54,734 bases of DNA from positions 1-54,734 of the forward strand of contig JANXRG010000008.1 of NCBI GenBank assembly GCA_025353105.1, in the 5' to 3' direction. Of the stretch, positions 18,733 to 23,772 are shown one piece after another (position 1 is the first letter of the stretch; each line of letters opens with the position of its first letter). The position numbers were made by a program, and so were the translations under genes. This stretch comes from Verrucomicrobiota bacterium. Its GTDB lineage: Bacteria; Verrucomicrobiota; Verrucomicrobiia; Chthoniobacterales; SZAS-18. The notes under the pieces were generated by a model. It did not search any database and had not been told where the DNA came from. It saw only the letters and a list, made by a program, of their open reading frames with translations.

Positions 18733-18768
18733 GAATTTCAGATTTTAGATCTTAGATTTCAAATTTGT
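18733..18768. repeat. Solo copy of the AATCTGAAATC-type repeat
   Basis: This 36-bp sequence, three bases upstream of the ADOP6 start codon, matches 34 of 36 bases with 21383-21418, which lies in the same position relative to ADOP7. Here there is no partner inverted copy and no cassette gene. The rest of the 108-bp spacer (to 18838) shows no further feature. Confidence 0.75.
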
Positions 18769-18838: not shown

Positions 18839-21379
18839 TCATTCGGAGCGGAGCGCCGTCATTGGGTTCACGCGGGTGGCGCGACGGGCGGGGAAGAAGC
18901 AGGCGAAGAGCGCGGCGGCGCCGAGCACCATGATGGCGCCACCGAGCGCGATTGGGTCATACGGGCTGACGCGGAAGAGGACGCTGGCGATCAGCTGGCC
19001 GGCCGCCAGCGCGAGCAGAACGCCAAGGCCGAGGGCAACGGCAGTTTGCTTCGCGCCCTGACCCATGATCAACTGGAAGACGTCGGCGGGCCGGGCGCCC
19101 AGCGACATGCGGATGCCGATTTCGCGAGTACGGCGCGAGACCGCATAAGCGTGGACGCCATACACGCCGATGGCGGCGATGAGCAGGGCCGCGCCGCCAA
19201 AGACGGCGAAGAGCGCCGCGCCCGCCCGGATGGTCCAGCTGCCGAAATTACGATCGACGACGTTTTTGAATGTGGAAAGGCTCTGGAGCGGAAGATCGGA
19301 TTCCGCGGCGCCCAACTCGCGGCGCAACACCGGCAGGAAGGCCGAGGCGGCGGCCGGCGATTCGTTCGCGAGGCGGACCTGGAAATACACGCTCGCTTCC
19401 GGCGCCTGCGCCAGCGGCACGTAGAGATGGGCATGGGATTCGTTCCCAAACACGTCGTGCCGGGTGTTGCGCACCACGCCGATGATTTCCATTTCCGGCC
19501 GCGTGCCATCGGGGGAGGCCGAGAGGTACTTCACGCGTTGTCCGATGGCGCCTCCGTTCGGGAATAATTTTTTCGCAACCTTTTCGTCAACGATGATGGT
19601 CCGCGGCGCGCCCGGGATATCCGATTCGGCCGGAGTGAAGTCGCGTCCCTCCAGAATCGGAATGCCGACCGAGCGAAAGAGGCAGGTCGTAACCACATGG
19701 TAAACGCCGCTCGCGCCCAGTTTCTCACCGGGACTGGGCGTCGCGTCGACGGGATCGCCGGCGCGCAGGATCCGTTTTGTGTCCGTGTTGTTGATGTACG
19801 GCACCATCGTGTTGACCGCGACGGAGGCGACGCCGGGCATCGCGGCAATGCGGTCGCGCAGGCGAATCAAGCGTGGCAGCGCGTCGGTCGGCTTCACGCG
19901 CGAGAGACTGTAGTCCAGCTCGGCCACCACGCCGCCGTTGGTCGTGAATCCAGGGTCAGCGGTGGCGGCCATCGCACCGCCGCGGAAGAAGAGTGCGGCG
20001 GAGAAAACCAGCGCCAGGGAAAGCGCGAGCTGCGCCATGACCAGCAGGTGCCGGGGGGCAAAGAGCCGGTGGGACGGACTGTGGGCGAATTCGCCAGCCT
20101 GCTGCTTAAGGTCATTGGCCAGGTCGACCCGCGTCAAGTTCAACGCCGGCCCGAGGCTGAAAATGAGCGTCGCGATCAGGCAGAACGCGAACGTGGCGGC
20201 GAGGGCGGTGCGGTCGGGGGTGAAATCAACGACCAGATTGAAAGAGAAGGACATCGACTCGAAGACGCTGCGCATCGAGGACAACAGGACGCCGTTAGCC
20301 CAGTAGCTGAGGCCCAGGCCGACGATGCCACCGAGCATGGCGAGGACCAGTCCCTCGACGAGCAGTTGTCGAATCACGCGGCCGCGTCCGGCCCCGAGCG
20401 CAAGGCGGAGGGCGATTTCCTTCCGCCGCGCCGCGCCGCGCGCCAGCAGCATGTTTGCGAGATTCAAGCAGGCGATGAGCAGGACAATCGCGGCCAGACT
20501 GAGGAAGACGATTCCCATCAGACCGGTGACGTCATCGCTTTCGGGCTCCGTGCTGATGTTGAAACGGGAGGGTTTCTGCACCATCAACGCGCGGGCGCCG
20601 CCCGACTCCGGCGGGGCCAGTGCGTTGAGTCTTTCGTCGAGCACCGGCAGGCGCGACTTGGCGTTGTCAACCGTCACCCAGGGCGCGAGGCGGGCCAGGA
20701 TATTCAGGGCGTGGGTCCGCGGATTTGCGAGGTCGGAGCTTCCATCCGTCCATTGGCTTGACAGCTGACTATAGATGCCGAGGGGGAGCCAGGCGTCGGG
20801 CGCAACCAGCGCATGCGTGCCGCTGAAGCCGCGCGGGGCGACGCCGATAATCGTGTAGGCGTCACCGTTGACCCGGAGGGTGGAGCCAATCAGATTGTCC
20901 GTGCCGCCTAGGAACCGCCAGTACGCATGGCTGATCACGACCACGGGAAGGTTGGCCCCGGGCGTGGACTCGGCCGCGTTGAATCCCCGGCCGAGGGTCA
21001 GATTGGCGCCGTGCAGGGAAAAATAATTATCGGAGACGTAGAAGGCGAAACTGCGTTTTTGCGATTCCGCATCCTTGCCCAGTCCGGCCAGAGTGAAGCC
21101 CAAAGCGCAGACGTCGCTGAAGACTTCCTTGGTCTCGCGCAACGCCTGATATTCGGCGTAGGAGAACTGACGATAGCCGCCGTCCGTGCCCTTGCGCCCG
21201 GTGAAGACGGCCACGATCGACGCGGGATCCTGCGCCACGATCGGCTTGAGGATGGCGCCATTAACGAGCGCGAAGATCGCCGTGTTCACGCCGATGGCGA
21301 TGCCAAGGGTGAGCACGGCTGCGATCGTGAAGCCGGGGGACTTGAACAGTTGGCGGATGGCGAACTTCAGATCATTCAT
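18839..21379 (-). CDS. ADOP-family MacB-like permease 7 (operon-proximal)
   Basis: At 846 residues this is the longest permease and the first of the seven to be transcribed. It opens MNDLKFAIRQLFKSPGF and GVNTAIFALVNGAILKPI. Signatures are [18 protein letters not shown] and TREIGIRMSLGARPADVF. The extra length lies in the first periplasmic core (around residues 210-290) and in the region before the second FtsX copy. ADOP proteins are heterogeneous in their periplasmic cores, and this one is clearly separate from ADOPs 2-6. It is separated from the ATPase gene by a 4HB cassette in opposite orientation. Confidence 0.9.
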   Translation of the reverse strand: MNDLKFAIRQLFKSPGFTIAAVLTLGIAIGVNTAIFALVNGAILKPIVAQDPASIVAVFTGRKGTDGGYRQFSYAEYQALRETKEVFSDVCALGFTLAGLGKDAESQKRSFAFYVSDNYFSLHGANLTLGRGFNAAESTPGANLPVVVISHAYWRFLGGTDNLIGSTLRVNGDAYTIIGVAPRGFSGTHALVAPDAWLPLGIYSQLSSQWTDGSSDLANPRTHALNILARLAPWVTVDNAKSRLPVLDERLNALAPPESGGARALMVQKPSRFNISTEPESDDVTGLMGIVFLSLAAIVLLIACLNLANMLLARGAARRKEIALRLALGAGRGRVIRQLLVEGLVLAMLGGIVGLGLSYWANGVLLSSMRSVFESMSFSFNLVVDFTPDRTALAATFAFCLIATLIFSLGPALNLTRVDLANDLKQQAGEFAHSPSHRLFAPRHLLVMAQLALSLALVFSAALFFRGGAMAATADPGFTTNGGVVAELDYSLSRVKPTDALPRLIRLRDRIAAMPGVASVAVNTMVPYINNTDTKRILRAGDPVDATPSPGEKLGASGVYHVVTTCLFRSVGIPILEGRDFTPAESDIPGAPRTIIVDEKVAKKLFPNGGAIGQRVKYLSASPDGTRPEMEIIGVVRNTRHDVFGNESHAHLYVPLAQAPEASVYFQVRLANESPAAASAFLPVLRRELGAAESDLPLQSLSTFKNVVDRNFGSWTIRAGAALFAVFGGAALLIAAIGVYGVHAYAVSRRTREIGIRMSLGARPADVFQLIMGQGAKQTAVALGLGVLLALAAGQLIASVLFRVSPYDPIALGGAIMVLGAAALFACFFPARRATRVNPMTALRSE

Positions 21380-21382
21380 GGG

Positions 21383-21418
21383 GAATTTCAGATTTCAGAT
21401 CTTAGATTTCAGATTTGT
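21383..21418. repeat. Left arm of inverted repeat flanking the four-helix-bundle gene
   Basis: The inner 26 bp (21391-21416) are the reverse complement of 21835-21860 with 24 of 26 matches. The arm is made of two copies of the word AAATCTGAAATC (read on the opposite strand). It begins three bases from the ADOP7 start codon. Confidence 0.8.
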
Positions 21419-21463
21419 CTCTCGCAGTGAACGTGGTAGACGAACTCGCAGGATCAGGCGGAG

Positions 21464-21856
21464 ATGAAGCGGCGGACGAAGGCGTTTGCTCTCCGCGTGT
21501 TGAAACTGATGGATGCGTTGCCGAGGTCTGCAAAGGGTCGACTCTTCGCCGATCAACTCGGACGGTCTGGAACGTCGGTTGCCTCGAACTACCGGGCGGC
21601 GTGTCGGGCGCGTTCGGACGCGGAGTTTCTGGCGAAAATTGGGGTTGTCCTCGAGGAGGCAGATGAGTCGGCTCTTTGGTTGGAACTCATGATTGACGAG
21701 GGAATCCTGAAACCAAGGCGGCTCGCTGAGCTTCTCAACGAGGCAAACGAAATTAACGCGATCATGGTTGCGACGCGGCTCAGTACGATTCGGCGCACGT
21801 CCGCGGCGCGCAATCTCGAGAAGGCGCGTTCCAAAAATCTGAAATCCAAAATCTGA
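21464..21856 (+). CDS. Four-helix-bundle protein (S23 / 23S-rRNA-IVP family)
   Basis: This 130-residue, all-helical protein resembles the S23/IVP four-helix-bundle family. The diagnostic stretch is about residues 30-75 (LGRSGTSVASNYRAACRARS, then EFLAKIGVVLEEADESALWLE). The family includes ORFs inside 23S rRNA intervening sequences and is related to the Avd accessory protein of diversity-generating retroelements. The biochemical function of the free-standing copies is unknown. It is the only plus-strand gene in the minus-strand ABC cluster. Its last residues (SKNLKSKI) and its stop codon are encoded inside the right arm of the flanking repeat, so the C-terminus is probably accidental. No reverse transcriptase or template repeat lies nearby. 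Confidence 0.85.
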   Translation: MKRRTKAFALRVLKLMDALPRSAKGRLFADQLGRSGTSVASNYRAACRARSDAEFLAKIGVVLEEADESALWLELMIDEGILKPRRLAELLNEANEINAIMVATRLSTIRRTSAARNLEKARSKNLKSKI

Positions 21857-21860
21857 AATC
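21835..21860. repeat. Right arm of inverted repeat flanking the four-helix-bundle gene
   Basis: This arm holds two copies of AAATCTGAAATC-like words and is inverted relative to 21391-21416 (24/26). It contains the stop codon of the four-helix-bundle gene. Confidence 0.8.
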
Positions 21861-21871
21861 ATAAATTCAGT

Positions 21872-22543
21872 TCAGGTTTCCATCCACCCGTCGCGCAGCC
21901 GGATCACGTGGCGGCCGAAGCCGGCGTTTTGGTCCGAGTGCGTCACCTGCACGACCGTGGTGCCCTCGTCGTTCAGGCGCTTGAAGCGTTGCATGATCTC
22001 GCGGCCCTGATCGCTGTGGAGGTTGCCGGTGGGTTCGTCGGCGAGGAGCAGGCGCGGCTTCGCGATCGTGGCCCGGGCGATGGCCACGAGCTGCTGCTGG
22101 CCACCCGAGAGTTGGGACGGGAAAAGATCCTTCTTTCCGACGATCGAGAATCGATCGAGCGCATCGGCCACCATCGCCTCGCGGTCCTTGGCGTGCAGAT
22201 CGCGGTAGCGGAGCGGGACGTCGAGGTTCTCGGCGACCGTGAGATCGTCGAGCAGATGAAACTGCTGGAAGACGAAGCCGACATTCGCTTTGTTGAGCGC
22301 GGCGCGCTCCTTCGGTTTCATCGAGTGCACGGGCTGCTCGTCGAACCAGAACTCGCCCTGCCAGCCGTGATCGTAGAGGCCGAGAATGTTGAGCAGCGTG
22401 GATTTCCCCGCGCCGCTCGGGCCCATGATCGTGACAAAGTCACCGTCCTCGATGTCGAGCGTGATGCGGCGCAAGAGCCACGTCGGACTCGGTTTGGTGG
22501 GCACCGATTTCTCGAGCCCCTTGAGTTGAATCAACGGTTTCAT
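21872..22543 (-). CDS. ABC transporter ATP-binding protein A (MacB/LolD type)
   Basis: This is a 223-residue nucleotide-binding subunit. Walker A is GPSGAGKS (about residue 41), the Q-loop is in FVFQQFHLL, the signature is [14 protein letters not shown], Walker B is [11 protein letters not shown] and the switch His is in VTHSD. The DEPTGNLHS extension is typical of the LolD/MacB/FtsE branch, which powers FtsX-fold permeases. ATG 22543 gives the normal family start ([13 protein letters not shown]); a longer reading to 22597 adds 18 unrelated residues. It follows ATPase B by 84 bp and is the last ATPase before the permease row. Confidence 0.92.
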
Positions 22544-22627
22544 GAGTTCGGTACTCGTTTTTTGGCGCGAGGATTCGCGATCGCAGTGCGAAACCACGGC
22601 GTTTTTTGGGAGCGGTTTCTCGCGCGG

Positions 22628-23320
22628 CTAATGCTTCGTTTCTTCCACGACGCGACCGTCGAAAAGATGGATGGCGCGCTGGGCGTGCCCGGCGAAGCGC
22701 TCATCGTGCGTGACCATCACGATGGTGGCGCCGTCGGCGTGCAATTCGGCGAGGAGTTGCATCACCTGCTCGCCGTTGCGCGAATCAAGGTTTCCCGTGG
22801 GCTCGTCCGCGAGCAGCACGCTCGGCTTGCCGGCGAGGGCGCGGGCGACGGCGACGCGCTGCTGTTGACCACCGGAGAGCTGGCTCGGCAGGTGTCGCGC
22901 GCGATGGCTCATGCCGACCCGCTCCAGCGCGGCGGTGACGGCGGTCTTGCGGTCGCCCGGCGACATGCCGCGATAGGTGAGCGGCAATTCCACGTTTTCG
23001 AAGACGTCGAGGTCGCCGATGAGATTGAAGCTTTGGAAGATGAAACCGATTTCCTGATTCCGGACGCGGGCACGCTCGGAGGGATTCAAATCGGTGACGG
23101 GGCGATTGTTGAGTTTGTAGGTGCCGGCGGTGGCCGTATCGAGCAGGCCGAGGATTGAAAGCAGCGTCGACTTACCGCAGCCGGAGGGTCCCGCGATGGA
23201 AACGTATTCACCTTTGAGGATGTCGAGATGAATGCCCGAAAGCGCGTGGGTCTCAACCTCGTCCGTCAGAAACACCTTGGTGATGTCATCGAGTTGGATG
23301 AGATGTCCGTTGGTTTGCAT
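22628..23320 (-). CDS. ABC transporter ATP-binding protein B (MacB/LolD type)
   Basis: This 230-residue ATPase has Walker A GPSGCGKS, signature [17 protein letters not shown], Walker [14 protein letters not shown] and switch His in VTHDE. It is closer to the MacB/LolD consensus than ATPase A, whose signature and D-loop differ ([13 protein letters not shown]), so the two are not a recent duplicate and may form a heterodimer or serve different permeases. The start ATG at 23320 overlaps the frameshifted tail of the GxxExxY gene by 55 bp, as expected if that gene was inserted and then decayed. Confidence 0.93.
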
Positions 23321-23682
23321 AGGGAGTGAGGGGGAAGGGGCTTAGCCACGAAGGCACGAAGGGCACGAAGTATTGTTAGAGGATCTTGCGCTTGATGCCG
23401 TTTTTCAGAATTGATGTGCAGGCCCTCATGCTTTCCGGTGGCGCGGAGATAGCCGAGGAGTTGGGCTTCGTGGACGGGATCAAAGCGTTCCACCGCCTTG
23501 ATTTCGACAACGACGCGATCGGCCACCAAGAGGTCGAGTCGATGCTCGCCGATTGGGCAGCCGTTGTAGGTGAGCAGAACTGCGACCTGCCGCATAAAAT
23601 CGAGCCCGCGGAGGGCAAGCTCGTGGCAGAGGGCGTTTTCATAAACGCTCTCGAGGAGCCCGGGACCAAGGTGTCGGTGCAC
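23266..23682 (-). pseudogene. GxxExxY-family protein, decayed (C-terminal frameshift)
   Basis: The N-terminus HRHLGPGLLESVYENAL carries the G-x-x-E-x-x-Y motif (GLLESVY) that names the family. The middle (YNGCPIGEHRLDLLVADRVV, then EIKAVERFDPVHEAQLLGYL) is the conserved core, which resembles a PD-(D/E)XK nuclease core (D-L-L ... V-E-I-K-A). After LHIN the frame changes: the expected family ending (LKNGIKRKIL, stop at 23376) continues in another frame. A small deletion near 23410 therefore seems to have shifted the reading into unrelated sequence that runs into the ATPase B gene. The only start in frame is GTG 23682, and family-like codons (GAAIEV) lie upstream without an ATG. It is probably a pseudogene. 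Confidence 0.75.
23345..23370. repeat. Left arm of inverted repeat flanking the GxxExxY cassette
   Basis: This 26-bp arm is built of the word GGCACGAAG and is the reverse complement of 23747-23772 with 24 of 26 matches. It lies 25 bp from the start codon of ATPase B. Confidence 0.8.
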
Positions 23683-23746
23683 CTCAATCGCGGCCCCCTG
23701 ATCCCTTCCGAAGGCGAGTCCTCATGATTTCGAATCAGTGGCATTT

Positions 23747-23772
23747 CTTCGTGATCTTCGTGCCTTCGTGGC
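23747..23772. repeat. Right arm of inverted repeat flanking the GxxExxY cassette
   Basis: This 26-bp arm is made of the word CTTCGTGCC repeated nearly three times and is inverted relative to 23345-23370. It ends 7 bp before the adaptor stop codon (23779). The bracketed unit is about 428 bp. Confidence 0.8.

Follow-up and report, generated by a model that had tools for sequence, protein, structure and literature searches.

In RAYT/REPIN systems a small gene lies between inverted repeats, gene-less inverted pairs are scattered, and the repeat is specific to the lineage. The Avd protein of diversity-generating retroelements forms a pentamer. Intervening sequences in 23S rRNA were regarded as transposition remnants in older proposals, as related in the accessible part of PMC4990558. 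Unexplained heptanucleotide repeats have been reported in Xanthomonas (GGGAATC), Nostoc (GGGGA(C/T)T) and Beggiatoaceae (TAACTGA), and the Xanthomonas word often forms inverted pairs, 70 and 75 cases being given for two genomes (available portions of PMC4692102 and PMC4679880, the counts from the former). S23 is not mentioned in the main text of either of these two papers, and no title or abstract describing S23 or GxxExxY cassettes with inverted arms was found in a literature search that left most subscription journals and all preprints outside. We describe here an S23 gene between inverted heptad arrays in a window of 54,734 nucleotides (the whole stretch of DNA that was analysed), and we conclude that this cassette exemplifies a general pattern found across many bacterial phyla.

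The S23 cassette of the window

The assignment of the gene to the S23/IVP family, made initially from the sequence alone, was borne out by profile searches, in which the protein matched both PF05635 (E 1.9e-15, 57.4 bits, cut-off 33.8) and TIGR02436 (E 3.4e-22, 78.7 bits, cut-off 24). These were the sole Pfam match and the NCBIfam match of the cassette; no transposase family was found in it. A structure model predicted four helices with a mean pLDDT of 95.4, and its best PDB match was 2rld (TM 0.91 by target), followed by 2gsc and then by Avd (4dwl; TM 0.82 by target, sequence identity 10%), so that the suggested relationship to Avd is supported at the level of the fold. Each of the two solved relatives, 2rld and 2gsc, contains five chains.

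The two arms were inverted, 34 nt long and 88% complementary, each consisting of four to five imperfect copies of the 7-bp word ATTTCAG reading inward. The initial annotation had given them as 26-bp arms matching at 24 of 26 positions; this inner match is correct, the true arms extend beyond it, and the 12-bp word of which each arm was said to hold two copies is replaced by the heptad. The stop codon (21854-21856) does fall within the right arm. About 0.45 kb long, with a single short gene between two inverted heptad arrays, the cassette fills almost the whole gap between two ORFs on the strand opposite to the S23 gene, one for an ABC ATPase (21872-22597) and one for a permease (18839-21379), and is not inside a 23S rRNA gene. 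The original remark that no other gene of the ABC row is on the plus strand agrees with the large ORFs there, which are all on the minus strand and were named by eye as permeases and ATPases. The arm score, a local alignment of the upstream flank with the reverse complement of the downstream flank, was higher than at any of the 826 control positions in the window, and the predicted fold of the cassette paired both arms (z -2.81). The word is not restricted to this locus: ATTTCAGATTT occurs 39 times in the genome, and its reversed control does not occur at all.

When the whole window was scanned for inverted pairs with spacers of 20 to about 1600 bp, the S23 cassette and a GxxExxY cassette were the only ones found (Table 1). 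The GxxExxY gene is unrelated to S23 and nuclease-like, with the same inverted-arm layout and a different word (CACGAAGG). The solo ATTTCAG array is 75-77% similar to the left-arm region and was perhaps copied together with the permease 5' end.

Table 1. Positions of the cassettes and of the solo array in the window
Feature	Position	Strand	Basis or remark
Solo ATTTCAG array	18733-18767	+	Precedes paralogous permease start; lacks a gene and an inverted partner
Left arm, S23 cassette	21383-21416	+	Imperfect ATTTCAG heptads pointing at gene
S23 / four-helix-bundle gene, 130 aa	21464-21856	+	ORF and PF05635/TIGR02436 profile matches
Right arm, S23 cassette	21835-21868	-	Inverted copy of ATTTCAG heptad array
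GxxExxY gene (PF13366/TIGR04256, PD-(D/E)XK superfamily)	23266-23700	-	ORF 23266-23682, family match to 23700
Arm of second cassette, word CACGAAGG	23345-23370	+	Within 3' end of GxxExxY ORF
Second inverted arm, GxxExxY cassette	23747-23772	-	Inverted-pair scan

The position of the S23 cassette is not conserved. At the corresponding site of a congener (G001, L059) the ATPase is followed by about 95 nt and then by the permease start, with no array and no S23 cassette; the junction is not exact because the identity is only about 81%. At another locus (L061, 1000-1450) repeats of type AGCCCCGGCAGGGGCGTAAGAAGATAGCCCACGGCGTGAGCC adjoin the orthologous ATPase.

Profile searches of this genome found six S23 and four GxxExxY genes, and all ten had inverted tandem arms when their flanks were read, with a different word each. 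Nine of the ten beat all 826 control positions for the inverted-arm score; the score of the tenth (L010) was matched or exceeded by 14 of the 826. A single arm sequence as the mark of S23 genes was rejected, ATTTCAG arms being present at one of the six and the others differing; in place of one arm that always brackets the family we found a layout in which nearly every cassette has its own word and which GxxExxY genes share.

Gene-less inverted pairs of ATTTCAG were present at C49, C63, C97 and C102, and such pairs also occurred for the words AACTCGA and CCACAGATT. Their spacers were mutually unrelated, and the pairs are therefore not simple deletion products; an origin by deletion from cassettes was unsupported, with one true remnant (L361, see below) seen. 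A DUF3592 gene (L234) was considered as a further cassette and rejected, since the gene-less pairs on its two sides are separate ones. The genome also has two other families of inverted pairs, with spacers of 48-285 bp and not made of tandem heptads, one of TAGGAGCCTGTTGAAATACTGGCATGG.. (L227, L232, L236, L237 and L242) and another of AGGTGGAACGCGACCTCCGGGCGCGTTG (L234, L236, L237 and L243). Gene-less inverted pairs of AAGGAACAAGGAGGAAGGAAGAA also occurred (L234, L240 and L246); S23 arms matching this word were found in the congener G001 (L137) and not in this genome. At L054 (1334-2215) two genes, MazE-like and Doc-like by eye, lay between two ATTTCAG words in direct orientation.

Arms across the order and in other phyla

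S23 genes were present in 43 and GxxExxY genes in 42 of 57 genomes of the order. We examined 119 S23 genes out of 173 matches, 118 of which had sufficient flank, and GxxExxY genes in batches of 34 (33 scored) and 18 out of 131 matches, using an arm-score threshold of 28 that was fixed after the first ten genes had been seen. This score was reached by 101 of the 118 S23 genes, compared with 24 of 833 control windows, and by 30 of the 33 GxxExxY genes, compared with 4 of 97 controls; the second GxxExxY batch gave 17 of 18, for a total of 47 of 51. Thus 17 S23 and 4 GxxExxY genes remained below the threshold. The control rate in these comparisons was about 3-4%. When neighbour genes served as controls, 3 of 76, 5 of 88 and 4 of 194 reached a score of 28; control windows and neighbour genes pass the arm test in about 2-6% of cases. 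Two loci of one genome (L117 and L118 of G055) were considered as transposition copies and rejected as such; because they were 99.8% identical across the whole stretch, they represent a duplicated contig, and both were retained in the counts. Elsewhere (L130) two S23 cassettes lay about 1.1 kb apart and showed 90% identity across 392 bp, a stretch that takes in part of the arm.

The internal period of the arms differed between the two gene families. The 101 S23 arms, with a median aligned length of 34 nt, had their highest mean self-match at lags 7 (0.487) and 14 (0.457), the other lags giving 0.24-0.32, and the best lag was 7 or 14 in 76 of them. For the 30 GxxExxY arms the best lag was 8 or 9 in 22, and the self-match at lag 7 was 0.246. 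The inward strand was purine-rich in 81 of the 101 S23 and 26 of the 30 GxxExxY arms.

Beyond the order, the named-genome set consisted of the best 80 of 584 loci, with members from Bacteroidota, Verrucomicrobia, Planctomycetes, Kiritimatiellaeota, Omnitrophota, Cloacimonadota, Ignavibacteriae, Desulfosoma, Desulfuromonadales, Dokdonella, Thiodictyon, Syntrophomonadaceae and others. Among these 80 loci the arm score lay above the 95th percentile of 1120 controls in 66 and above the 99th percentile in 62, and no rRNA was found at the 20 of them that were scanned with Rfam. Cyanobacterial plasmids gave arms at all ten S23 genes examined (drawn from 27 plasmid records with a match), with scores of 32-63 compared with 25 for the best of 51 controls. 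A chance origin of the arms was rejected on the window, neighbour-gene and other-phyla controls. No match to S23 was found in phage records, and no PADLOC match pointed to a role in defence.

Insertion of gene and arms together, and the link between word and protein

Comparison of filled with empty cyanobacterial plasmids showed that the gene and both arms were missing together at seven sites. Plasmid C of Trichormus variabilis ATCC 29413 carries an S23 cassette at a site that is empty in four plasmids of 97.3-97.7% identity (Aulosira AP018310, N. linckia AP018224, N. carneum AP018182 and Tolypothrix CP064880). The empty site reads ..AAAAA GTAAT TAAC.. with no arm present; in the filled site GTAAT stands on both sides of the gene plus arms, a clean 5-bp target duplication. 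A fifth plasmid (L361) has a deletion remnant at the same position. At the six further sites, relatives of about 84-95% identity lacked the gene and both arms: these were Aulosira p2, Nostoc C052 pD, Calothrix brevissima p2, N. edaphicum between two ribonucleotide reductase genes, Nostoc ATCC 53789 pc, and Picosynechococcus PCC 7003 between cas10 and cmr3. The target duplication was clear at one of the seven sites; elsewhere a few to 17 bp differed or were lost. One type of cassette was found on plasmids at three sites that are unrelated to each other, the homology between them extending over no more than about 416-419 bp. The suggestion of a mobile cassette without a transposase thus gains support from sites in relatives that are empty of arms as well as gene, with a 5-bp duplication in one case. 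The cas6-cas4 site of Anabaena 90/Dolichospermum was not clean and was omitted from the site count, and the L131 site was uninformative in five relatives, where synteny was gone beyond the upstream gene. Three S23 cassettes (L349, L356 and L399) were observed inside CRISPR operons of cyanobacterial plasmids, twice between cas6 and cas4 and once between cas10 and cmr3.

Protein identity and arm similarity were correlated between genomes. For S23 the Spearman coefficient was 0.170, compared with a maximum of 0.077 in 1000 permutations and 0.051 for reversed arms. For GxxExxY it was 0.452, with a null maximum of 0.231; reversed arms gave 0.341, and part of the GxxExxY signal is therefore base composition. 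There were 90 S23 pairs of at least 60% identity, not independent of one another, 28 with common flanks and 62 without, and among those 62 the arms were similar, with the same word, in 26. One pair (L140 and L141) is a counter-case, with common flanks, 69% protein identity and different words. We conclude that an S23 lineage tends to own its word, as a statistical link.

The dispersal of individual words was followed through the same 57 genomes. Allowing at most one mismatch, ATTTCAGATTTCAGATTT occurred in 13, with at least 4 matches in six (G000, G010, G013, G031, G046 and G051). Four of these six hold an examined S23 cassette with such a word; the best S23 arm word of G010 is only related to it, and no such cassette was seen among those examined in G046. 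Two other genomes, G016 and G039, have S23 arms of the ATTTCAGATTTCAGATTT kind, yet 0 and 1 dispersed matches, respectively. In the 37 genomes whose S23 genes were examined, the number of genome matches correlated with how well the best arm matched words of the ATTTCAG type (rho 0.50). For AACGTCC, which was found in 7 of the 57 genomes, the same comparison gave a rho of 0.61, and the five genomes with more than 5 matches (11, 16, 50, 84 and 90) were those with the five best-matching S23 arms, although kinship confounds this co-occurrence because all five belong to one family (f8), to which it is almost confined. In a sixth genome (G015) the S23 arm has a related word. The reversed AACGTCC control gave 53 matches in G050, where the plain pattern had 0; these probably belong to an unrelated heptad family. 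The GxxExxY word CACGAAGG was found in 5 of the 57 genomes and was commonest in G002, where the three GxxExxY genes examined carry other words. Within sampled stretches, own words were commoner than foreign ones in G000 (p 4e-5, from a biased sample), G013 (0.0044) and G039 (0.033); the 400-kb sample of the present genome was picked partly from contigs with ATTTCAG arrays. Two S23 words, then, are dispersed mainly in genomes with a matching cassette, and gene-less arrays and inverted pairs are scattered there.

Interpretation and comparison with described systems

We consider it probable that the S23 cassette is a mobile gene cassette without a transposase, in which gene and arms form one unit and the protein recognises its own arms. 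The plasmid comparison shows the S23 gene and both heptad arms inserting together into intergenic sites; the protein probably binds its heptad arms as DNA or as RNA, and through this binding host or trans-acting enzymes would copy or keep the cassette and its gene-less relatives, much as RAYT acts on its REPINs. The GxxExxY genes would form a parallel cassette class with arms of period 8-9. This would give the widespread, unexplained S23 family and GxxExxY a common genomic setting and a testable role as transposase-less mobile cassettes, each linked to a repeat word of its own. Heptanucleotide repeats whose reported over-representation had no explanation would then have a source, and the occurrence of S23 genes inside 23S rRNA, CRISPR operons and plasmid operons would be accounted for.

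More tentatively, and with less than even confidence, we suggest that selfish cassettes might form two convergent classes, with S23 proteins as the specific factor of one and GxxExxY proteins as that of the other, and that every protein lineage might read a heptad (or 8-9-bp) word of its own and spread gene-less arrays through its hosts. The heptanucleotide repeats of Xanthomonas, Nostoc and Beggiatoaceae and the S23-coding inserts of 23S rRNA could then be products of the same system, and its physical basis might be a pentamer reading five heptads per arm.

It is somewhat unlikely that S23 and GxxExxY are passengers, with arms that form the termini of a non-autonomous element, which a transposase or a host Y1/RAYT protein mobilises in trans. 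Y1_Tnp was found in 44 of the 57 genomes and, as the initial annotation had thought worth looking for, Y1/RAYT proteins are present in this one, with 8 matches; moreover, a known recombinase is encoded neither by S23 nor by the arms, and gene-less inverted pairs occur. Six genomes (G016, G022, G024, G029, G038 and G045) nevertheless hold armed S23 cassettes with no Y1_Tnp match, so that RAYT does not seem to be required, and the arm period follows the gene family and the arm word the protein lineage, which would be unexpected for a passenger. We regard as unlikely, too, a reading of the arms as RNA elements, in which a transcript stem is cut by RNase III, S23 binds RNA, and spread is by horizontal transfer or recombination only. 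The predicted pairing of the arms in the window cassette agrees with it, as do the 28-bp terminal stem of the Coxiella intervening sequence, cut by RNase III according to the part of PMC4990558 at hand, and the place of Avd, a fold relative, in a reverse-transcriptase ribonucleoprotein (title of 8ub7); but the gene of the window cassette is on the strand opposite to that of the operon, an RNA role is not needed for gene-less pairs whose spacers are unrelated, and tandem heptads and word dispersal are left unexplained. That the arms are ordinary tandem repeats grown by slippage near small fast-evolving genes, their inverted layout being due to chance or later copying, is very improbable: heptad copy number does vary (by 14 bp between the Trichormus and Scytonema copies) and heptanucleotide repeats are common in bacteria (sections of PMC4692102 and PMC4679880), but only the small fraction of control windows and neighbour genes given above reaches the arm score, and the empty sites lack arms as well as gene.

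The mobile cassette that we prefer shares features with several known systems. The 23S rRNA intervening sequences of Coxiella, Leptospira and others likewise combine the S23 family with a length of about 430 nt, inverted ends of about 28 bp and suspected mobility (from what was available of PMC4990558), whereas the window copy and those at the seven plasmid sites are outside rRNA, either between protein genes or at the end of one. The repeats of Xanthomonas, Nostoc and Beggiatoaceae are also intergenic heptads, with inverted pairs frequent in Xanthomonas but few reported for Nostoc, in the portions of the two heptad papers named above. Avd has the same fold as S23, at a sequence identity of 10%. 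As in MITEs, we found a short element with inverted repeats and, in one case, a target duplication; unlike MITEs, the cassettes carry a conserved gene, their arms vary from copy to copy, and no partner transposase was found for them (the host family searched was Y1_Tnp). They differ from DNA transposons and insertion sequences in having no transposase gene. RAYT is a Y1 HUH transposase, whereas S23 is a four-helix bundle and GxxExxY is PD-(D/E)XK-like; REPs are single palindromes tagged with GTAG, whereas the cassette repeats are tandem 7-mers (or 8-9-mers), and the spacers of the gene-less pairs of cassette type are unrelated. With RAYT/REPIN systems the S23 cassettes nevertheless share inverted repeats around a small gene, scattered gene-less pairs and a word that is specific to the lineage.
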